Positions 17,346-30,526 of a stretch of 64,000 nucleotides of DNA are shown here, in pieces. The position numbers and the translations under genes are program-made. The notes beneath the pieces are model-generated. The model did no database searches. It worked only from the letters and a program-made list of their open reading frames with translations, and was not told where the DNA came from. The number at the start of each line of letters is the position of its first letter. Position 1 is the first letter of the stretch. The stretch is from Pseudomonadota bacterium (GTDB taxonomy: Bacteria; Pseudomonadota; Gammaproteobacteria; Burkholderiales; Burkholderiaceae_C): NCBI GenBank assembly GCA_020161775.1, contig JAIUOW010000006.1, positions 165,240-229,239 of the forward strand. The letters are read 5' to 3'.

Positions 17346-17677
17346 TCCACAAGACCATCCCCCTCAAGTCCGTGCGCGACGCGCTCATGTGCGCGATGGT
17401 GCGCAAGTGCAGTGGTCGCCAGTCGATGGACGGCAAGCCTCTGGGCCGCTGCGCCGCGTTTACCCAGTACCCGCTGCTGAACATCGCCTGTCGCGAGGCC
17501 AAGCGCGGCCACCGGCCTTACCTGCACCAGCCGCATCACTTCGGCCCCATGTCCAAGGGCGACATGGAGCGGGTACTGAAAAACGTGCGCTGCGCGGGCC
17601 TGGCCGAGGTGCGCCGCACCTGGGGCCAGGGCATGCGGGCAATGGCGGTTGAATTCGCCGATGGGGTCATGCGATGA
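17342..17677 (+). CDS. Early phage protein of unknown function upstream of transposase
   Basis: The 111-residue protein (MIHKTIPLKSVRDALMCAMV) contains several Cys and His residues (ALMCAMVRKCSG, GRCAAF, LNIACREAK), which could bind a metal. It overlaps the small gene before it and the transposase after it (ATGA at 17674). Similar-sized genes sit upstream of A in other Mu-like phages, but I cannot name it. Confidence 0.6.
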   Translation: MIHKTIPLKSVRDALMCAMVRKCSGRQSMDGKPLGRCAAFTQYPLLNIACREAKRGHRPYLHQPHHFGPMSKGDMERVLKNVRCAGLAEVRRTWGQGMRAMAVEFADGVMR

Positions 17678-19830
17678 CCTGGCTCACCGCCCGCGAACTC
17701 GCCGGTCTTCCCGGCATGCCCGGCTCCGAGCGCCGCACCCGCGACAAGCTGGCCCAGCTGCAGGTGCCTATGCGCTCCCGCGCTGGCCGGGGCGGTGGTC
17801 AGGAATACGACTGCACGGCGCTGCCCGCCGAGACGCGCACGGCCCTGATGATCGACAAGATCGCCCAGGCCGCGCCTTTGGTGGCCGCGCATGCCGAGGC
17901 GACCGTCCCCGCACAGGTGGCCGCCAACCTTCCCGCCCCCATCACCGCACGCCGTCCGCCCAGCCAGGCAGACAAGGCCGTCGCCGACGCCCGCGTGATG
18001 CTGATCAACCGCCTGGAGGAACTGGCCGGCCTGCAGGGCACCAAGAAGGGCGCGGCCCTGCTGTCCCTGCAGCTGTCCAGCGGTCAGGCCAGCGCCGAGC
18101 TGCAGGCCACGGCCCGCACGGCCAACCAGCGCCCGCGTGATGCATCGGTCAGCCCGCGCACCCTGCTGCGCTGGCTCAGCACCCACAGGGCCGAGGGCTG
18201 GTGGGGTCTGCTGCCCGCCCAGGCCGACGACACCGGCGCCGAAGTGGGCAACGACGTAGCGGCGGTGCTGGGCCGGTACCTGAACAAGGACGCCCGGTAC
18301 CGCAACCTGAGCGCCGCCGCGATGGAGGTGAACGCCGAACTGGGCAACGACCCCGACGCCTGGCGCAACCTATATGCGCGCGCCCGAAGGGCACTGCCTA
18401 AGGTCAATCGCGTGGACCTGATCAAGGCACGCCACTCGGGCGCCGAGCGCGCAGCCAAGCTGCCCTTCAAGCGCCGCGATACCAGCGTGCTCAAGCCGCT
18501 GGACGTGTGGCTGATCGACGGCCACACCTTCAAGGCCAAGGTACGCCACCCCGATCACGGCGCCCCGTTCGCGCCTGAGGTGACTGTGGTTAAAGATGCC
18601 GCCACCCGCCTGATCTGCGGTTGGTCGGTGGCGTTGAGCGAGAACGTGATCGCGGTGGGCGATGCCCTGCGGCACGCGGTTGGCCGCTGCGGTAGCCCGG
18701 CGATCGTCTACAGCGACAACGGCGCAGGCGAAACCGCCAAGCAGATGGACTGCCCTGTAACCGGCATCATCGCGCGCCTGGGCGCCGATCACCGCACCGG
18801 CATCGCGGGCCATCCGCAGGGCCACGGCCTGATCGAGCGCGGCTGGCGCACCCACATGATCAACTGCGCGCGGCAGTTTGGCAGCTACCAGGGCAAGGAC
18901 GTGGACAGCAACACGCTGCGCAAGGTCAGCGCCGAGCTGGCCAAGGAGCAACGCGCGCTCAAGCGGGCCGAGTCCACGGGCGAAGTCATCCAGCTCAGCC
19001 ACAAGGCCCCCACCTGGAAGCAATTCATTGACGCCGTGCAGGTGGCTGTTGACAAGTACAACAACGAGCACCGCCACCGCAGCCTGCCCAAGAACGCCCA
19101 AGGCAAGCACATGACGCCGGCCGAGGCATGGGCCGCCATGCTCGACACCAGCCTGCAGCACAAGCTGGGCGAGTTGGAGCTGCGCATGCTCTTCATGCCG
19201 GCCGTGCTGCGCACCGCCAAGCGCGGCGAGGTGACGTTCCTCAATCAGACGTACTTCTCCAACGACCTGATGGCCGTGGACGGCGAACAGGTCCGGGTGC
19301 ATTACGACATCCACGACCCCAACTTCGTGATGGTGTTCAGCACAGACGGCGAGTTCGTCTGCGAGGCGAAGTGGAACGCCAACCGTATCGACTACTTCCC
19401 CAAGCCCGTGGTGCAGATGGCGCGCGAAAAGCGCGTCGATGCGGCCGTCAAGCGGCGCGAGGGTCAGATCGAACTCGCCAAGCGCGAGCTGCAGGGCACC
19501 TACGGCCCTGCCAATGTTTTTGCCCTGCCGGAACCGTCCGCCCCCGTGGTGGTGGTGCCCCCGCTGGAGGTGCATGTCTCCTCCTCCCCCTCCCTCTTGC
19601 TTCCAGAGGCGCAGCCGGTGCAAACCGCTGCGGGCAGGCCTTTCTTTGACACACAGAGCCAACGCTACGAGTGGCTCATGTGCAACCGCACCGCCTGGGC
19701 TGACGCCGATCACGCATGGGTCAGCGATTACGTCCAGGGCGACGACTACGACGGCCTGCGCGACTACTTCGCCTCGCGCGGCATCGACTGGCAAGCCACC
19801 AACCAAACCACTACGAGGGGAACTGCATGA
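17674..19830 (+). CDS. A: Mu A-type DDE transposase
   Basis: The 718-residue protein has the MuA domain order. The N-terminal winged helix (MTWLTARELAGLPGMPGSER) binds end or enhancer sites. A central helical DNA-binding region follows, then an RNase-H-like catalytic core: LDVWLIDGHTFKAKV (Asp282), AIVYSDNGAGE (Asp348) and GHGLIERGW (Glu388). A MuA beta-barrel domain and a C-terminal tail complete it. Asp-Asp-Glu are all present, so the enzyme should be active. It is followed directly by the B ATPase gene (4-bp overlap), as in Mu. Confidence 0.95.
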   Translation: MTWLTARELAGLPGMPGSERRTRDKLAQLQVPMRSRAGRGGGQEYDCTALPAETRTALMIDKIAQAAPLVAAHAEATVPAQVAANLPAPITARRPPSQADKAVADARVMLINRLEELAGLQGTKKGAALLSLQLSSGQASAELQATARTANQRPRDASVSPRTLLRWLSTHRAEGWWGLLPAQADDTGAEVGNDVAAVLGRYLNKDARYRNLSAAAMEVNAELGNDPDAWRNLYARARRALPKVNRVDLIKARHSGAERAAKLPFKRRDTSVLKPLDVWLIDGHTFKAKVRHPDHGAPFAPEVTVVKDAATRLICGWSVALSENVIAVGDALRHAVGRCGSPAIVYSDNGAGETAKQMDCPVTGIIARLGADHRTGIAGHPQGHGLIERGWRTHMINCARQFGSYQGKDVDSNTLRKVSAELAKEQRALKRAESTGEVIQLSHKAPTWKQFIDAVQVAVDKYNNEHRHRSLPKNAQGKHMTPAEAWAAMLDTSLQHKLGELELRMLFMPAVLRTAKRGEVTFLNQTYFSNDLMAVDGEQVRVHYDIHDPNFVMVFSTDGEFVCEAKWNANRIDYFPKPVVQMAREKRVDAAVKRREGQIELAKRELQGTYGPANVFALPEPSAPVVVVPPLEVHVSSSPSLLLPEAQPVQTAAGRPFFDTQSQRYEWLMCNRTAWADADHAWVSDYVQGDDYDGLRDYFASRGIDWQATNQTTTRGTA

Positions 19831-20594
19831 AGCCTGGGTTCGTTCAAACAGAAAACTTCCGCCGCCTGAAGGACGCCGAGAAGCTGGTCGCCCGCCGGGG
19901 CGCCAGCGAGGCCGGCCTGGTCATCGTGCGCGGTGTCTTCGGCGTCGGCAAGTCCAAGCTCACCGAGCGCTGGGCGGCCGAGAGCGGCTACGTGTTCATC
20001 CGCGCCAAGGAGACTTACACCAAGCGCGCCCTGCTGGACGAGCTGGCCGACGCAATGGGCCTGGCCAAGGGCGGGCGCAACATCGAGGTGCAGGGGCGGA
20101 TCATCGCCAAGGTCGGCGTTGACATGGTGCCGATCATCGTGGACGAAGCCGACCACCTGGTGCGCAGCACGGCCAGCCTGCTTGAAGTCTTGCGCGACAT
20201 CACCGACGTGACGGGCTGCATGTGCTTCCTGGTCGGCATGGAGCACTTCCCCATGAAGGTCGCGCGTTATGGCCACATCGCCAGCCGCGTGGCCAAGGTG
20301 GTCGAGTTCGAGACGCTGTCGATCGGCGACATCCGCGCCACGGTGAACGCCAAGGCCTCGCTGGGCTCCGAACCGAATGCCCCCGCACTGCCGATGGACG
20401 AGGACGTGGTGGCCGAGATCCACAAGCAGTGCTCTGGCCGCATGCGCCTGGCGCTGAACGCGATCGCCAACATTGAGGGCTGGGCGCACGCCAACGGCTG
20501 GAAGAAGGTCACCCTGGCCGACATCAAGGGCAAGGCCCTGTGCACCGAGTTCAGCGGCAAGCCGCTGGGCGTCTCGGCCAACCGCGTCAAGTAA
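19827..20594 (+). CDS. B: Mu B-type transposition ATPase (target-DNA activator)
   Basis: The 255-residue AAA+ protein has a P-loop GVFGVGKSK (about residues 36-44) and a Walker B VPIIVDEADHL (about 101-111). It is shorter than Mu B (312), lacking much of the N-terminal HTH region. MuB-type proteins bind target DNA as filaments, stimulate the transposase and confer target immunity. The start overlaps the transposase stop. Confidence 0.92.
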   Translation: MKPGFVQTENFRRLKDAEKLVARRGASEAGLVIVRGVFGVGKSKLTERWAAESGYVFIRAKETYTKRALLDELADAMGLAKGGRNIEVQGRIIAKVGVDMVPIIVDEADHLVRSTASLLEVLRDITDVTGCMCFLVGMEHFPMKVARYGHIASRVAKVVEFETLSIGDIRATVNAKASLGSEPNAPALPMDEDVVAEIHKQCSGRMRLALNAIANIEGWAHANGWKKVTLADIKGKALCTEFSGKPLGVSANRVK

Positions 20595-23378: not shown

Positions 23379-23900
23379 ATGGCTACCACCAAGCTGAAGG
23401 CGAAGGCCCAGACCTACGCCCCGCAAACCCCCAACGACTGCGCCGCCGACATCAAGAAGCTGGGTGATCTGCAGCGCGATTTTGCCCGCCAGCAAGCCGA
23501 CATGAACGACGAGATCGCGGCGATCACGAAGCGCTACCAGCCCAAACTGGAAGCACTGAGCGAGCGCATCGCCACGTTGCAGCAGGGCGTGCAAACGTAC
23601 TGCGAGGCGAACCGCAGCACGCTGACCAACGACGGCAAAGTCAAGACGGCCAACTTCGTCACCGGTGACGTCCAGTGGCGCCAGCGACCGCCCAGCGTGT
23701 CGATCCGCGGCGCCGATGCCGTGATCGAGGTTCTGCAGCGCATGGGCCTGTCGCGCTTCGTTCGCACCAAGGAAGAAGTGAACAAGGAGGCGATCCTCAA
23801 CGAGCCGGACGCCGTGCGCGGTATCGCTGGCATCAGCGTGGTCACCGGGGTCGAGGACTTCGTGATTTCCCCGTTTGAAGCCGCAGCGGAGGCCCGCTGA
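23379..23900 (+). CDS. gam: Gam-like host nuclease inhibitor / DNA-end protector
   Basis: The 173-residue protein matches the Mu Gam family: an N-terminal helical pair, then KTANFVTGDVQWRQRPPSVS, and VVTGVEDFVISPF at the end. Mu Gam is a Ku-like dimer that binds double-strand ends and blocks RecBCD-type nucleases. A Shine-Dalgarno AAGGAG precedes the ATG. Confidence 0.9.
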   Translation: MATTKLKAKAQTYAPQTPNDCAADIKKLGDLQRDFARQQADMNDEIAAITKRYQPKLEALSERIATLQQGVQTYCEANRSTLTNDGKVKTANFVTGDVQWRQRPPSVSIRGADAVIEVLQRMGLSRFVRTKEEVNKEAILNEPDAVRGIAGISVVTGVEDFVISPFEAAAEAR

Positions 23901-25286: not shown

Positions 25287-25660
25287 TGCTTAAGCGAGCC
25301 TGCGATGCCAATCACTGTGGAGTGCCCACCGATTCAAGCAAGGGCATGTGCCCGCATCACTGGCGCATGGTGCCTCTGGACGTTCAGCGGCGCATATACG
25401 CCGCCGCCCGCAAGTTCACCACCTCGGCCGAGCGCCTTTCCAGCGTCGAGTTCTTGGAGGCCTGGGCCGATGCGGTTGAGTTCGTCGCCATGCAGGAGGG
25501 CAGGCTTACTCGCAACGCTTACCGCAATTTGGCCAATTGGACGAAGCGCCGGGCGCTCACCACTGCAGCGCCATCACTCAAAAAGACCGGCCAATCGGGT
25601 GATGGCCTGTCTCTCCGAAGCAGTATCACTCGCCCGCAAATACCGAAAGCACCACTATGA
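25286..25660 (+). CDS. Early phage protein with Cys/His N-terminus, upstream of DGR
   Basis: The 124-residue protein (MLKRACDANHCGVPTDSSKG) has a small putative zinc site: C-x4-C, then GMCPHHW. This N-terminal pattern recurs in phage proteins of Burkholderiales. The remainder is helical with a basic end. Its stop overlaps the start of the first DGR target gene (ATGA), so the DGR is read from the same early transcript. Confidence 0.55.
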   Translation: MLKRACDANHCGVPTDSSKGMCPHHWRMVPLDVQRRIYAAARKFTTSAERLSSVEFLEAWADAVEFVAMQEGRLTRNAYRNLANWTKRRALTTAAPSLKKTGQSGDGLSLRSSITRPQIPKAPL

Positions 25661-26274
25661 ACATGAAAGAAGGTTTCCCCACCACACCCGGCACGCCCTA
25701 CGGAGGCGGCTTCTACGACGGCCCCATCGTCCTTGGCAACGAGGTGTGGGGCCAGGTCAGTGCCCCCAAGGCGCAAGGTCAGATCACCGGCATCTGGATG
25801 CCAAAGAGCAGCAACGTCATCGGGGCCACAAGCTACGTTGACGGCCTGGCCAACACCCGCGCAATGGCGGACGCGGGCAGTCCCATCGCGCAGCAGGCTC
25901 TGGCTTGCCGCATCGCGGGCTTTGACGACTGGCACATCGGGGCACGGGACCAGGTGGAGCTGCAGTACCGGCACCACAAGCCCACCAAGCAGATGAACGC
26001 CGGCAACTTCCGCGACGGTGACAACCCGAGCAGTTACCCGGCCGGCTATCGCTACAGCAGCGACATGCCGCTCCAAACGCTGGACCCGCTGTTTCAAGAG
26101 GACGGTGTCGAGGCATTTGAACCGATGGGCTATTGGACAAGCACGCAGTACTCGGCCTACTACGCCTGGTCTCAGCTCTTCTACTACGGCGGCCAGCACC
26201 TCAACGCCAAGAGCTGGGAGCTGGGCGTCAAGTTCGTCCGCAGATTCTTCATCGGTCATTTGACCCTTCGGTAA
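25657..26274 (+). CDS. DGR target protein 1 (C-type-lectin/DUF1566-like variable protein)
   Basis: The 205-residue protein has no signal peptide or membrane helix. The C-terminal domain has the DUF1566/formylglycine-type pattern found in many DGR targets: FDDWHIGARDQVELQ, then YWTSTQ, the VR, and LGVKFVRRF. VR1 covers residues about 163-197. Relative to the template the variable residues are N-to-Y, Y-to-S, N-to-L, N-to-Y twice, N-to-G, N-to-H, N-to-L and D-to-A. The residues after the VR (FIGHLTLR) are unique. It is expected to bind a changing ligand; the ligand is unknown. Confidence 0.93.
   Translation: MNMKEGFPTTPGTPYGGGFYDGPIVLGNEVWGQVSAPKAQGQITGIWMPKSSNVIGATSYVDGLANTRAMADAGSPIAQQALACRIAGFDDWHIGARDQVELQYRHHKPTKQMNAGNFRDGDNPSSYPAGYRYSSDMPLQTLDPLFQEDGVEAFEPMGYWTSTQYSAYYAWSQLFYYGGQHLNAKSWELGVKFVRRFFIGHLTLR
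26143..26247 (+). repeat. DGR variable repeat VR1
   Basis: This is a 105-bp repeat of the template at 27446-27550 with 12 substitutions, every one at a template adenine (A to T, C or G). The 3' part from GAGCTGGGAGCTGG onward is identical to the template. The homology begins at ACGCAG and ends at CAGATTC. Confidence 0.97.
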
Positions 26275-26281
26275 TTCATTG

Positions 26282-26307
26282 CCGGCGCGCAGCGCCGGTC
26301 GAAATTT
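26282..26307 (+). repeat. Hairpin repeat after VR1 (copy 1)
   Basis: A 7-bp stem CCGGCGC/GCGCCGG with a 3-nt loop GCA is followed by TCGAAATTT. The same 26 bp recur after VR2 at 26839-26864. Inverted repeats just downstream of VR stimulate homing in the Bordetella phage DGR, so a cruciform role is likely. As RNA it could also act as a weak terminator. Confidence 0.88.
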
Positions 26308-26322
26308 TTCAGGAGCACCGTT

Positions 26323-26838
26323 ATGCGCACTCTGACCGTCCCAAACTTTGCCGCCGCCGTCACCGGCCAGGGCGGCGTTCTCGGCCCGCTGATGCGCGCT
26401 GAGCCCAGCTCAGGCCAAGAGGACTACTTCATCATCGTGCCGACCGATCCGGCCAGCGTGATCGCCAAGATCGCCTATGGCGGCGAGGGCAAAACCACCA
26501 AGGGCGCGGACAGCGAATGGGACGGCCTGGCCAACACCCGCGCGCTGGCCACCAGCAAGACCAAACACCCTGCAGCGCGCGCTGCCGTTGAGCTGGTGAT
26601 TGACGGGCACCAGGACTTCTACCTGCCCGCCAGGCGTGAAGCACGCGTGCTGCAGGCCATGCTCCCTGAGCTGTTCTATCCAGCCGCCCAGTGGACCAGT
26701 ACGCAGTTCTCGGCCCACTACGCCTGGTCTCAGTACTTCAACTACGGCGACCAGTACTACGACGGCAAGAGCTGGGAGCTGGGCGTCAAGTTCGTCCGCA
26801 GATTGCCCCTTTCGTTCTTTAGCACTTCGGTCCTTTAA
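26323..26838 (+). CDS. DGR target protein 2 (C-type-lectin/DUF1566-like variable protein)
   Basis: The 171-residue protein has a good Shine-Dalgarno (AGGAG, seven bases before ATG). It shares DGLANTRA and the DFYLPARREARVLQAM motif layout with target 1. It ends in VR2 (about residues 127-161) plus a short unique tail (PLSFFSTSVL). Its N-terminus (MRTLTVPNFAAAVTGQGGVL) differs from target 1, so the two proteins share the display fold but not the attachment part. There is no export signal. Confidence 0.92.
   Translation: MRTLTVPNFAAAVTGQGGVLGPLMRAEPSSGQEDYFIIVPTDPASVIAKIAYGGEGKTTKGADSEWDGLANTRALATSKTKHPAARAAVELVIDGHQDFYLPARREARVLQAMLPELFYPAAQWTSTQFSAHYAWSQYFNYGDQYYDGKSWELGVKFVRRLPLSFFSTSVL
26701..26805 (+). 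repeat. DGR variable repeat VR2
   Basis: This is a 105-bp repeat of the template with 10 substitutions at template adenines (A to T, C or G). The only other difference is the final base (C to G), where homology ends. VR2 and VR1 differ from each other at many of these sites, so the two were diversified independently. Confidence 0.97.
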
Positions 26839-26864
26839 CCGGCGCGCAGCGCCGGTCGAAATTT
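26839..26864 (+). repeat. Hairpin repeat after VR2 (copy 2)
   Basis: This is identical over 26 bp to the repeat at 26282-26307 (stem CCGGCGC/GCGCCGG, loop GCA). It overlaps the stop of target 2 and ends five bases before the Avd start. Conservation of the hairpin after both variable repeats, but not of the surrounding sequence, points to function. Confidence 0.88.
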
Positions 26865-26868
26865 CAAA

Positions 26869-27273
26869 ATGACTCTCCACACCAAACTGGAAATCCACAA
26901 GGCCGCATACGCCTTACTGGGCCTGGCCACGGATGCGCAGGCGAACATGCGCAGGCCGTTCAACAGGTCGCTTGGTGTGCGAGTCCACGACGAATGCATC
27001 GCCTTGCTGGTGCTGATCGCCAAGATCAACGCCACCGAGCCCGGCGAGGCCCGCGTGCCGCTGATCGCGCACCTGCTGGAATGCATCGACGTGGTGAAGT
27101 TCCTGATGCGTATCTGCATCGACAAACAGCTGATCGCGCCGTCGATCTGGCAGCAGTCGAACAACACTCTACAAAGCCTCGGCAAGCAGGGCGGTGGGTG
27201 GCTAAAGTGGGAACGTCAGGTCAAAGACCAGCGCCGCGCTGCGGCGCACCACAGCAACGCGTCTGACGCATGA
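26869..27273 (+). CDS. avd: DGR accessory variability determinant (Avd-like)
   Basis: The 134-residue, all-helical, basic protein (MTLHTKLEIHKAAYALLGLA) sits between the target genes and the template repeat, as Avd does. Segments such as LVLIAKINATEPGEARVPLI and IDVVKFLMRICIDKQLI predict the four-helix bundle of Avd proteins. A barrel-shaped Avd pentamer binds the RT and template RNA in the Bordetella phage system. The C-terminus is rich in Lys, Arg and His. Confidence 0.88.
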   Translation: MTLHTKLEIHKAAYALLGLATDAQANMRRPFNRSLGVRVHDECIALLVLIAKINATEPGEARVPLIAHLLECIDVVKFLMRICIDKQLIAPSIWQQSNNTLQSLGKQGGGWLKWERQVKDQRRAAAHHSNASDA

Positions 27274-27445
27274 AAGTCAAGATTTTCATGCCTGTACGCT
27301 CTTTGAATCTGGTCCCGCCCCTGGCTCACGAGGCCACGGACAAGTGCGCAACGGATACCACTGGACAGCTTCAGCTTTGGTCCGGCACAGATACTCAGCT
27401 GATCGGCGAATGCCTTCGGCCGGGCGTCGTGGATAGCGGGAATCG

Positions 27446-27550
27446 ACGCAGTACTCGGCCAACTACGCCTGGTATCAGAACTTCAACAACGGCAACCAGA
27501 ACAACAACGACAAGAGCTGGGAGCTGGGCGTCAAGTTCGTCCGCAGATTC
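27446..27550 (+). repeat. DGR template repeat (TR)
   Basis: The 105-bp donor sequence includes eight AAC codons in the VR reading frame. AAC can change to many amino acids but never to a stop, the usual DGR design. TR is not translated in the target frame. It lies between avd and the RT gene, and its 3' end is followed within two bases by a perfect TGCCCC/GGGGCA hairpin (27553-27566). Confidence 0.97.
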
Positions 27551-27551
27551 A

Positions 27552-28658
27552 ATGCCCCTCGGGGCACCTTTTCAGGCCGGCGACCTGGCCCAGGCATTCC
27601 TGGACTGCCGCCGGCACAAGCGCAACACGCCCGCCTGGCAAGCCTTCGAAGCTGATTGCGAACGCCACTTGGTTGAGATCGAAGAAGAGCTGCGCGCGGG
27701 CACCTACCGGCCCGGCCCGAGCAACTGCTTTGTGGTGACGCACCCTAAGCCCCGTGAGGTATGGGCCGCCCAGCCCCGTGATCGCGTTGCCCACCACCTT
27801 CTCTACAACCACATCGCCCAGCGCTTCCACAACAGCTTTGAGGCCGCCAGCAGCGCATGCATTCCCGGTCGGGGCACGCTGTACGCGGCCAACCGGCTTG
27901 AGCACGACATCAGGTCGATCACGCGGAACTGGAAGCGGCCGGCCAGGTACCTCAAGTGCGACCTGTCGAACTTCTTTGTGTCGATAAAGAAGCCGGTCCT
28001 GCGCGAGCTGCTCGCCGAACGCATCACAGAACCGTGGTGGCTGTGGCTTGCCGAAACGATCCTCTTCCACGATCCGCGTACCGATGTGAGAGTCTGCAGC
28101 CCATCGCATGTACTGGCCTTGGTGCCGCCCCACAAGAGCCTGTTTAACGCGCCCGATGACGCGGGCTTGCCTATCGGCAACTTGTCGAGCCAGTTCTTCG
28201 CCAATGTCTTGTTGGACCCGCTGGACAAGTTCGTCAAGCACCAGCTTCGCTGCAAGCACTACATCCGGTACGTCGATGACTTCGTGCTGCTGCACGAAGA
28301 CCCGCAATGGCTCAGCGCAGCCCTTGCCAGGATCACCGCCTTTCTACCCGAGCGCCTGGAGCTGAACCTGAACCCCACAAAGACCATCCAGCAGCCCGTG
28401 GAGCGCGGGATCGACTTCGTGGGCCATGTGATCAAACCCTGGTGCCACACGACGCGCCGCAGGACATTAAACACGGCGCTGCGTCGGTTGGAGCACATGG
28501 AGCCCGGCGACGTGTTTTCCGTTGGCAATAGCTACCTTGGCTTGATGGGCCAGGCTCAGGAGAGCCACACCGACAGAGCGCGAATCTGTAACGCACTGCG
28601 CCGCCGTGGCCACGCCGTCAGCGGAGACCTTTCCAAAGCTCACAGGAGCGCTGCATGA
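27552..28658 (+). CDS. DGR reverse transcriptase
   Basis: From ATG 27552 the RT is 368 residues (MPLGAPFQAGDLAQAFLDCR). Motifs in order: RYLKCDLSNFF (Asp137), GLPIGNLSSQFFANV (the SSQ that marks DGR RTs, about 206-218) and YIRYVDDFVLL (YVDD at 240-243). It lacks maturase and endonuclease domains, so it is not a group II intron protein. The frame is open upstream to ATG 27270 through the TR, but that extension has low-complexity non-RT sequence. The start codon lies next to and partly in the 27553-27566 hairpin. Confidence 0.95.
   Translation: MPLGAPFQAGDLAQAFLDCRRHKRNTPAWQAFEADCERHLVEIEEELRAGTYRPGPSNCFVVTHPKPREVWAAQPRDRVAHHLLYNHIAQRFHNSFEAASSACIPGRGTLYAANRLEHDIRSITRNWKRPARYLKCDLSNFFVSIKKPVLRELLAERITEPWWLWLAETILFHDPRTDVRVCSPSHVLALVPPHKSLFNAPDDAGLPIGNLSSQFFANVLLDPLDKFVKHQLRCKHYIRYVDDFVLLHEDPQWLSAALARITAFLPERLELNLNPTKTIQQPVERGIDFVGHVIKPWCHTTRRRTLNTALRRLEHMEPGDVFSVGNSYLGLMGQAQESHTDRARICNALRRRGHAVSGDLSKAHRSAA
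27553..27566 (+). repeat. Hairpin at the TR/RT junction
   Basis: A perfect inverted repeat TGCCCC-TC-GGGGCA begins within the proposed RT start codon, two bases after TR. In the transcript it could fold and limit RT translation, or define the 3' end of the template RNA region used for priming. Both roles are inference. Confidence 0.6.
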
Positions 28659-28933: not shown

Positions 28934-29364
28934 AGCCGCTATTGCGTACCGCCTCCGACAAGGCCGATCAACGGCGAAAGGAACTGGCACAGATCCACAT
29001 CGCCGTGGCCGCCCTCGCTTGGTCCGAAGCGGACTACCGGAACATCCTGCAGGCAAAGACGGGGCGAGCATCTGCCGGCGATCTGGACAGCACCGGCCGT
29101 AAGCGCTTCCTTGAGCACCTTCGCCAGTGTGGCTGGAAGCCCCAAGGAAATGGTCCGCGCCTGACCAAACAGCAGTGGCTGGTGCAGCGCCTCTGGAAAG
29201 ACCTCGGCCAGGCCGGCGCGCTTGAAGACAAGTCCGCCGCCGCACTCAACCGCTTCATCAAGGCCCAGGGCGGCCCGGATGAACTCCGCTTCCTCGGCAC
29301 CAGCCACGCCAGCCTGGTGATCGAAGCACTCAAGAGCTGGCTGCAGCGTGTGAAGACCAAATGA
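28930..29364 (+). CDS. gemA: GemA-like protein (Mu gp16 family, DUF1018)
   Basis: The 144-residue protein has the family pattern: KELAQIHIAVAALAWSEADY, RNILQAKTGRASAGDLDSTG, then LEHLRQCGWKP and LTKQQWLVQRLWKDLGQAGA. Mu GemA (gp16) affects host gene expression and DNA supercoiling. The start at 28930 overlaps the preceding stop. Confidence 0.85.
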   Translation: MKPLLRTASDKADQRRKELAQIHIAVAALAWSEADYRNILQAKTGRASAGDLDSTGRKRFLEHLRQCGWKPQGNGPRLTKQQWLVQRLWKDLGQAGALEDKSAAALNRFIKAQGGPDELRFLGTSHASLVIEALKSWLQRVKTK

Positions 29365-30131
29365 GTGCGGCACGGATTGTTTGCCAGTTCAGCTGCGGCG
29401 CCGCATCAGCGGTGGCTACCAAGCTCGCCTTAGCGCAGTACACGGGCAAACACAAGGTTGAAATCATCAACGCCTTCATCAAGCAGGAGCACGAGGACAA
29501 TCGCCGCTTCCTGGGTGACTGCGAACGCTGGTTTGAACGGCCGATCACCCAGCTGCGCAACGACAAGTACGACGGTGACATCGTGAAGGTGTTCCGGCTG
29601 CGCCAATTCATCAAGGGCCCGCGCGGCGCCATTTGCACCGTGGAGTTGAAGCGCAAGCTGCTGGACCGCTGGAAGCAGCCCAGCGACGTGATCGTGTTTG
29701 GCTTCACCGCCGAAGAAGAAGATCGCTGGGAAGATTGGATGCAGGCCAATCCGGGCCGTATCGCCCTTGCGCCCCTCGTGACGGCGGGCTTGACGAAAGA
29801 GGACTGCAAGGCAATGGTGCTGCGCGCCGGCATCCGCCTGCCGGTGATGTACGAGTTGGGATACGACAACGCCAACTGCAAAGGTTGTGTGAAGGGCGGC
29901 GAAGGCTACTGGCGCGCCATCCGGCACGACTTCCCCGGGGAGTTCGAGTCAATTTGCCTGGTGCAGGACGAGCTAGGCCCTGGGTCGTGGTTCCTGCGGT
30001 ATCGCAGCGGTCCGAAGAAGGATCAGCGTTTCCCGTTGCGCGACCTACCAGACGGTCCGATCGTGCGGAACGAGGGGCTTCCTAGCTGCAGCTTCTTCTG
30101 CGAAATGGCCGAGCAGGACTACGCGGCATGA
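29361..30131 (+). CDS. PAPS-reductase-like (adenine nucleotide alpha hydrolase fold) protein
   Basis: The 256-residue protein has a PP-loop variant near the start (VCQFSCGAASAVATKLAL) and a Cys-containing region further on (DNANCKGCVKGGEGYWRAIR). Phage homologues of phosphoadenosine phosphosulfate reductase are common but their substrates are mostly unknown. Placement between gemA and the mor-like gene is unusual. Sulfur metabolism, DNA modification or defence-related roles are all possible. Confidence 0.75.
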   Translation: MSAARIVCQFSCGAASAVATKLALAQYTGKHKVEIINAFIKQEHEDNRRFLGDCERWFERPITQLRNDKYDGDIVKVFRLRQFIKGPRGAICTVELKRKLLDRWKQPSDVIVFGFTAEEEDRWEDWMQANPGRIALAPLVTAGLTKEDCKAMVLRAGIRLPVMYELGYDNANCKGCVKGGEGYWRAIRHDFPGEFESICLVQDELGPGSWFLRYRSGPKKDQRFPLRDLPDGPIVRNEGLPSCSFFCEMAEQDYAA

Positions 30132-30526
30132 AGAACTGGGCCGATCTTTCCACGAACCTGCTGCCCAAGCTGCTGCAGGACTTTGTGCGCCTGATCGGCC
30201 TGCAGGCCACCATGCTGCTCGTTGAGCGGTTCGGTGGCCTGCGTATCTACATCCCGCTTCACCCCACGCCGGAGCATCACTTCGCGCAGCTGATTGGCTT
30301 TGACAACCTGGTCAAGCTGGCCGGTGAATTTGGGCGCGAAACGCACTTCGAACTGCCGAAAGCTCAGCAGGCGCTGCTGGCTGTTCGCAATGCCAAGATG
30401 CGGTCGGAATACGGCCCAAAGTCGCTCCGCGTTCTAGCCGCAGAGTACAAGCTCACCGAGCGCCAGGTGACGCGGATCGTCGGCGCCGACATACCCAACG
30501 ATGTCCAACCGGCGCTGTTCGAGTAG
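30128..30526 (+). CDS. mor: Mor/C-family transcription activator
   Basis: The 132-residue protein matches the Mor family: an N-terminal dimerisation region (LSTNLLPKLLQDFVRLIGLQ, then LRIYIPLHP) and a C-terminal helix-turn-helix (YGPKSLRVLAAEYKLTERQVTRIV). In Mu, Mor and C activate middle and late promoters. No second (C-like) gene follows, so this single protein may activate the leftward late genes 15-30 kb away. It is the last early gene. Confidence 0.88.
   Translation: MKNWADLSTNLLPKLLQDFVRLIGLQATMLLVERFGGLRIYIPLHPTPEHHFAQLIGFDNLVKLAGEFGRETHFELPKAQQALLAVRNAKMRSEYGPKSLRVLAAEYKLTERQVTRIVGADIPNDVQPALFE

Follow-up and report, generated by a model that had tools for sequence, protein, structure and literature searches.

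The window analysed here, a stretch of 64,000 nucleotides (nt) from a Pseudomonadota bacterium of the Burkholderiaceae_C (assembly GCA_020161775.1, contig JAIUOW010000006.1, positions 165,240 to 229,239 of the forward strand), carries a diversity-generating retroelement (DGR) whose template RNA appears to be permuted relative to that of the BPP-1 DGR. In the account that we favour, with a probability of about 0.57, the structured RNA RT-15 lies 5' of the template and is joined to the template's far edge by a long-range helix, complementary DNA (cDNA) synthesis would be primed beside that helix, and the open frame of the reverse transcriptase (RT) passes through the template. The arrangement of the template RNA is a more unusual feature of the locus than its setting in a transposable phage. 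All coordinates are those of the window, and the protein-coding and repeat parts of the cassette are as follows (aa, amino acids).

26143..26246, + strand: variable repeat 1 (VR1), 12 changes, all at template A; the run reaches 26249 if template A is left free
26701..26804, + strand: variable repeat 2 (VR2), 10 changes, all at template A
26869..27273, + strand: avd (phrog_3206, PHROG 'Avd protein of DGR', E 2.9e-18)
27446..27549, + strand: template repeat (TR), from ungapped alignment to both VRs
27552..28658, + strand: RT body, 368 aa from the first ATG after the TR (phrog_1423, E 2e-103)

A first-pass annotation of this DNA had reported differences between template and variable repeats that were confined to adenines, 12 in VR1 and 10 in VR2, and re-alignment confirmed them: over the 104 nt of the TR, which holds 32 A, 22 of 22 ungapped mismatches fall at template adenines and none at template C, G or T. 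The chance of all mismatches falling at A is 1.3e-7 for VR1 and 2.5e-6 for VR2 (hypergeometric, with the boundaries as observed). Similarity between TR and VRs ends at once 5' of the TR, and on the 3' side it ends after 27549-27552. When the genome was searched with a 51-nt pattern in which each template A was replaced by N, allowing up to 3 mismatches, three sites were recovered (TR, VR1 and VR2) and the reversed control gave 0; no fourth copy of the repeat was found by this search in the 32 contigs of the assembly. The Avd-like gene of the first-pass annotation is borne out by its PHROG match, and the DGR-type SSQ and YVDD motifs are both present in the RT translation. A complete DGR with two targets, avd, TR and RT is confirmed. 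The first-pass annotation had not remarked on the RT frame being open through the TR, on the RT-15 RNA 5' of the TR or on a 26-nt element that recurs after the two VRs. By sequence, the RT is of the DGR type, as had been proposed: a profile of 13 RTs searched against the Protein Data Bank (PDB) matched 8ub7, which a full-length match identifies as the BPP-1 RT, with E 1.8e-46, the next RT following at 1.9e-13, and nothing in this search placed the enzyme with retrons or group II introns.

A sister cassette, L271 (G047:C18, about 2166-2820 of the reverse complement), comes from another genus of the same family and is 92% identical over 2423 base pairs (bp). Its VRs differ from its own TR at adenines only (5 and 7 sites), as the first-pass annotation had predicted for related strains. 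The TRs of the window and of L271 differ at 27460 (C/T) and 27461 (A/G); site 27460 is C in the TR, VR1 and VR2 of the window and T in all three repeats of L271. This single concerted site lends thin support to past copying from TR to VR, as retrohoming predicts. The RT of L271 is truncated before YVDD.

The RNA elements of the cassette are listed below.

27257..27448, + strand: RT-15 structured RNA (Rfam RF03018, 160 bits, gathering 82), ending at the TR start
27303..27311, + strand: a1, 5' strand of a putative long-range helix (complementarity and covariation)
27312, + strand: G directly 3' of a1, candidate priming residue (G in 128/128 loci)
27314..27440, + strand: predicted multibranched RNA domain, closing stem 27314-27318 with 27436-27440 (RNAalifold)
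27544..27552, + strand: a2, 3' strand of the putative helix, the last 6 nt of the TR plus 3 (complementarity and covariation)

The RT-15 match is full-length and above the gathering score, and the record Cruim01 is already annotated with RT-15. To place this arrangement among relatives, 178 loci were gathered with a single RT and then with the 13-RT profile, the best 80 loci being taken from each of two large scans; the window and four distant loci (L009-L012) are included, and L006/L035 and L007/L042 are apparently two loci that each entered the count twice. By contig title, 21 of the best 80 named contigs are Pseudomonas, and about 36 are presumably Burkholderiales, going by our own assignment of genera to that order. 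In 165 of the 178 loci the finder recovered a TR accompanied by one or more adenine-only VRs (two VRs in 127, three in 19, four in 2 and one in 17); it recovered no TR/VR in the other 13, some of which are contig ends. Since the finder admits only adenine-only VRs by construction, the zero at C, G and T among the relatives' pairs is uninformative. L003 and L047 have four VRs each, some of them several kilobases (kb) from the RT. L030 and L031 are RT relatives with long flanks and no adenine-only repeat found; their TR/VR may be decayed or distant.

Relative to the position of the window's RT start, the TR ends at a median of -1 nt (range -43 to +19; 165/178 loci). Measured from the TR end to the conserved RT block, the gap in this clade has a median of 50 nt, from 31 upward (162/174 loci; L109, at 364 nt, is an outlier whose TR/VR call is probably wrong). 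Gaps are also short in L009-L012 (53-85), in a Bacteroides F2 set (68-99, 4/4) and in MT836212 (54), versus 209-264 nt in a BPP-1 set (56/67 loci) and 199-399 in a Lagaffe set (8/9). Seven other named phage records, BPP-1 included, gave 169-265 nt, with BPP-1 itself at 228. On an RT tree of 66 taxa (FastTree; DGR RTs only, with no non-DGR outgroup), 40/40 short-gap RTs form one clade with support 0.952 and no long-gap member. RT-15 lies directly 5' of the TR in 20/20 loci of the RT-15 clade tested, the window and 19 others, whereas the Rfam RNAs of BPP-1 (Phage_DGR, RF03022) and BalMu-1 (RT-14) are located 3' of their TRs. The structured spacer that BPP-1 has 3' of its TR and 5' of its RT was not found in the window, because in this RT clade the TR runs right up to the RT gene. 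Six sister short-gap loci gave no Rfam match even at E up to 1, and MT836212 gave none at gathering scores; a scan found no relatives of the MT836212 RT. L186, L261, L262, L009, L010, L012 and L187 are short-gap loci with no Rfam match 5' of the TR, and may carry undescribed 5' template RNAs.

The Rfam RT-15 model stops at the TR start, and outside it lies the a1/a2 helix, in which a1, TTGAATCTG (27303-27311), is the exact complement of a2, CAGATTCAA (27544-27552). As an equally long complement arose in 6/200 shuffles of the window alone, the case for the helix rests on relatives. The RNA set for this comparison omitted L009-L012 and two loci lacking the anchor motif, and its 159 loci were reduced to 128 at <90% identity; helix pairs were counted in 63 of 125 loci, leaving out the reversed loci among L005-L008. 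Over these 63 loci, 89.4% of cells are paired at the true register versus 23-45% when it is slid by 1-3 columns, and double changes occur in 6/9 pairs (51 double-change cells versus 15.0 +/- 2.8 in shuffled alignments). Among 7490 diagonals across the 128 loci, that of the helix is the best paired. The pair 27305/27550 is the top covarying column pair (GC 68, TA 38, CG 9, AT 2), and on the RT tree its two columns changed jointly on 8 branches where 1.2 were expected, and five of the 8 are compensatory; the column pair with the most compensatory branches (7) is also inside the helix. In 42 sister pairs there were 12 double changes that kept pairing at the true register, compared with 1-4 at slides of 1-4. 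A permutation test gave z -9.8 for the helix, uncorrected for relatedness; since this statistic ignores relatedness, we built the case on the slides, branch counts and sister pairs. The helix is also present in the single-sequence minimum free energy and centroid structures. The covariation supports a1/a2 pairing across the RT-15 clade.

Several results weigh against this helix or narrow its reach. By summed covariation its diagonal ranks only 12th of 7490, and several pairs of fast columns outside it reach 5-6 compensatory branches. The pair 27306/27549 is unpaired in 22/63 loci. The RNA is unremarkable in its folding energy (z -0.37), and RNAalifold, which predicted a 5' hairpin and the multibranched domain with many double changes, placed no a1/a2 helix. 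In L186/L260 and L261/L262, which are of the F2 type, there are 8-bp complements that 15-20/200 shuffles matched in each case; their sequence is different but they apparently lie in the same place, before a shared AAATGGG motif. The candidate in L187 has 9 bp and was matched by 4/200 shuffles, and at places picked by eye in L009-L012 no helix exceeded chance in the shuffle control. The Bacteroides-type loci have a residue other than G after their putative a1. The shuffle control led us to reject a recurrence of the helix throughout the sister short-gap lineages and leaves no more than hints in the Bacteroides-type loci and L187.

The frame of the RT gene extends upstream of its body.

27270..28658, + strand: RT open frame, 462 aa, ATGA start overlapping the avd stop, through RT-15 and the TR into the RT (open reading frame and frame conservation)

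Over 20 different lengths, the distance from the RT-15 end to the conserved RT block is the same modulo 3 in 124/128 loci, and that from a2 to the block is so in 122/128 over 14 lengths; TR-RT distances in the BPP-1 set are spread 21/19/16 modulo 3. Between sister pairs, anchored RT-15 length differences are multiples of 3 in 17/24 cases (p 2e-4). The RT frame is open through RT-15 in 112/128 loci. An NTGA start overlapping the avd stop, with the frame open from there to the RT, occurs in 59/126 loci; in 45/126 there is a different start, also open to the RT, at -60 to +90 nt relative to the avd stop. A stop lies inside the TR in 21/165 loci. From these patterns we infer that in most members, but not all, the RT is translated through a leader whose own sequence is unconstrained.

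It is also quite possible, though short of even odds, that the RT starts at the ATG at 27552, or inside the TR in relatives, and that the upstream open frame is a by-product of the RNA sequence. A start codon is indeed available in or after the TR in 118/128 loci, and third-codon-position bias was looked for in RT-15 and not found (93/94/105). Openness alone proves little, because the RT frame of BPP-1 (L183) is open through its TR too, and the contrast of stop-free loci among the three frames (111/6/12) is not independent evidence, since one conserved GTAGATAGC motif closes both other frames. Further points against a translated leader are that an unanchored TR start gives only 13/36 multiples of 3 for the RT-15 length differences, that 22/126 loci lack any start close to the avd stop from which the frame remains open as far as the RT, and that the frame is closed in or after the TR in 6/8 sister short-gap loci. 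The frame kept up to the RT block and the multiples of 3 between sister pairs speak against a by-product; moreover, 45/128 loci have no ATG, GTG or TTG after the TR, 10 of them lacking one within the TR as well, and L271 has AGG at the ATG position, though its RT is the truncated one. ARM81mr (L192, 4707-5993), a long-gap DGR, likewise has an RT frame open through its TR, and its annotated RT spans the TR.

Returning to the permuted RNA, we propose priming next to a1 because of the orientation of a1, the invariant G, and the precedents of retrons and BPP-1. a1 pairs on the 3' edge of the TR in the orientation expected of a primer, and TR/VR identity ends 1-7 nt from the first base of a2 in 252/263 pairs. 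Adenine change is low near a2, at 1/79 within 12 nt on its 5' side, 4/63 at 12-17 and 43/332 at 18-23, and reaches 24-58% in bins from 24 to 95 nt. This profile could reflect priming next to a1; codon constraint in the lectin could also shape it. Under our proposal, the template RNA would read, in an order permuted against BPP-1, hairpin, a1, invariant G, multibranched RT-15 domain, TR, a2 and RT, and the a1/a2 helix would hold the 3' edge of the TR against the RT-15 domain. RT and Avd would bind RT-15, and an RNA residue adjoining the helix, with G 27312 as the likeliest candidate, would prime cDNA synthesis, the TR then being copied with errors at A, going by the precedents of retrons and BPP-1. 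The cDNA would replace VR1 or VR2 beside the downstream hairpin, so that two small C-type-lectin-like proteins are mutated at adenine-templated codons in their C-termini. For most clade members, one mRNA would be both message and template, its RT open reading frame running from near the avd stop through RT-15 and the TR.

Other explanations of the same parts were weighed. The element may be a canonical DGR whose true priming spacer lies 3' of the TR, hidden in early RT coding sequence, with RT-15 and the helix protecting or terminating the template. BPP-1, for which PMC12875486 describes priming from an internal adenine of the 3' spacer, is the precedent for this, and a region after a2 exists in all loci; substitutions there follow codon positions (81/59/179), RNAalifold placed no pairs after the TR in an alignment that ran 12 nt past a2, and the only Rfam match here is 5' of the TR, as opposed to the 3' matches in BPP-1 and BalMu-1, so we regard a hidden spacer as quite improbable. 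A role for the helix as a translation switch, which would sequester the region before the RT body and couple RT synthesis to template folding with no part in priming, draws on the position of the helix, which reaches to A27552 of the ATG, and on the RT frame passing through it. We consider this unlikely, as only 18/128 loci have an ATG in frame in the stretch from a2 to the RT block and the ending of TR/VR identity so close to a2 points to cDNA biology. The idea of a retron or group II intron RT, with the repeats there by coincidence, is barely credible and was rejected: the RNA topology is retron-like, but the mismatches are adenine-only, an Avd is present, and every PDB match after the BPP-1 RT is at 1.9e-13 or weaker.

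The permuted arrangement combines traits of known systems. With the BPP-1 DGR the cassette shares Avd, TR, DGR RT, adenine-only variation and a C-terminal VR; it differs in its 5' RT-15 and its short gap to the RT block. It matches RF03018 in full and adds to that model the predicted helix. In retron msr-msd RNA, as PMC6868368 sets out, the 5' and 3' ends pair with each other (about 8-30 nt), and a conserved priming guanosine sits at the inner end of the 5' strand; the RNA of the window has the predicted end pairing and a G at the corresponding place. The window RT, in contrast, is not of the retron type, the priming role of its G is conjectural, and where retrons make a 2'-5' branched cDNA from the guanosine by the end helix, here there are the helix geometry and the invariant G only. 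Structural group 3 of DiGReF, in which the TR overlaps the annotated RT open reading frame according to a passage of PMC3521204, resembles our locus in having the TR inside the RT frame. The same passage considers the arrangement irrelevant to mechanism and not tightly tied to RT phylogeny, whereas here it tracks an RT clade. A short-gap DGR is also present in Bacteroides uniformis phage F2, and isolates of phages F1, F2 and F4 differ mainly in their VRs in the account excerpted from PMC8143477; these phages differ from the window in giving no Rfam match and in an RT start after the TR.

In the open-licence literature of PubMed Central we found no description of RT-15 as a DGR 5' spacer, of a link between RT-15 and a TR, or of the a1/a2 helix, though this does not by itself establish that they are new in print. 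The account of DGR priming in PMC12875486 comes from BPP-1, with its primer in the 3' spacer. If true, priming on the 5' side by way of a retron-like end helix would link two families of bacterial retroelements, add a second, compact RNA scaffold for use in directed mutagenesis and give the RNA family RT-15 a function. We suggest only tentatively that a whole clade of DGRs has a retron-like permuted RNA with a G primer 5' of the template and the TR in frame in the RT gene, the message being either translated or copied.

The DGR sits within the early operon of a Mu-like prophage, between Gam and the late activator.

17674-19830, + strand: Mu A-like transposase (PHROG/Pfam profile matches)
19827-20594, + strand: Mu B-like gene (PHROG/Pfam profile matches)
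23379..23900, + strand: Mu Gam-like gene, upstream of the DGR (phrog_491, E 5e-66)
30128..30526, + strand: late transcriptional activator, downstream of the DGR (phrog_836, E 6e-27)

Mu A, B, Gam and the late activator are present in that order on one strand, and the repressor, terminase, portal and head genes of the prophage are on the - strand. The earlier call of a two-target DGR in a Mu-like prophage therefore stands, on the TR/VR alignment and on profile matches to DGR and Mu genes. Its further claim, that such an arrangement in a transposable phage is rare, does not: the records of BalMu-1 and YPCBV-1, which we take to be Mu-like from their names and a literature listing, each carry a DGR. 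A published example is the hankyphage, a transposable phage with a DGR in the part of PMC12135933 that concerns it. After the DGR in the early operon there is a phosphoadenosine phosphosulfate reductase-like gene (29361-30131; phrog_424, E 6e-42).

Annotated neighbours within 6 kb were compared in seven distinct phage records with a close RT. In six, they are integrase, repressor, recombination, methylase, nuclease, lysis, other enzyme or unknown genes, with none annotated as tail; the seventh, SC_8_H2H8, is unannotated there. The DGR adjoins tail or virion genes in BPP-1, BalMu-1, Bise, YPCBV-1, 1F273, VHML, Lagaffe and ARM81mr. As a putative outer capsid gene is also present close to the short-gap DGR of phage F2, genome position tracks architecture only loosely. 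Neighbour families were drawn from samples of 118/288 upstream open reading frames (2 target frames of 120 having been removed by hand) and 120/310 downstream, some of which may be spurious. Among the matches listed, the best 25 of 115 and the best 25 of 139, the commonest families were ParB-like (8/118), RecE-like, integrase (16/120), HNH and methyltransferase; one 'virion structural protein' family was among the best 25 listed, matching 4/118 upstream frames. An sRNA-Xcc1 match lies near a relative cassette (L060, 9286-9370).

The two target genes and the hairpins that follow their VRs complete the cassette.

25657..26274, + strand: target gene 1, 205 aa, putative small C-type-lectin-like / Lcl_C-like protein (phrog_4245, E 4e-24)
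26282..26298, + strand: GC hairpin 3' of VR1, 7-bp stem, GCA loop, within a 26-nt element
26323..26838, + strand: target gene 2, 171 aa, C-type-lectin fold predicted (model confidence, pLDDT, 89.6)
26839..26855, + strand: GC hairpin 3' of VR2, same as after VR1, within a 26-nt element

Both targets are short, with the VR at the C-terminus. For target 2, the predicted structure puts this VR in a C-type-lectin fold, its best PDB match being the C-terminal domain of Legionella Lcl at modest similarity (E 4e-4; template-modelling scores 0.47/0.60). Weak sequence matches suggest the same for target 1, whose structure model was poor (pLDDT 69): it matched Lcl_C with E 9e-6, below the Pfam cut-off, and a profile of its relatives matched 8q4e over the VR end with E 0.001. 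The target of BPP-1, by contrast, is a tail protein, and how a phage would benefit from diversifying small lectins not encoded with its tail genes is a question that this locus raises. Our guess, held with low confidence, is that the targets are diversified ligand-binding proteins that do not belong to the tail and may act in lysogeny or on the virion.

The 26-nt element is identical after both VRs (26282-26307 and 26839-26864). BPP-1 requires a GC hairpin downstream of its VR, with a GRNA loop, as stated in a part of PMC3240598; the window shares the hairpin but not the tetraloop, as both of its hairpins have a GCA triloop. In the whole set of loci a GC hairpin follows the VR in 63/263 cases versus 18/263 upstream controls, and 29/63 of these post-VR hairpins have GCA or GTA loops.

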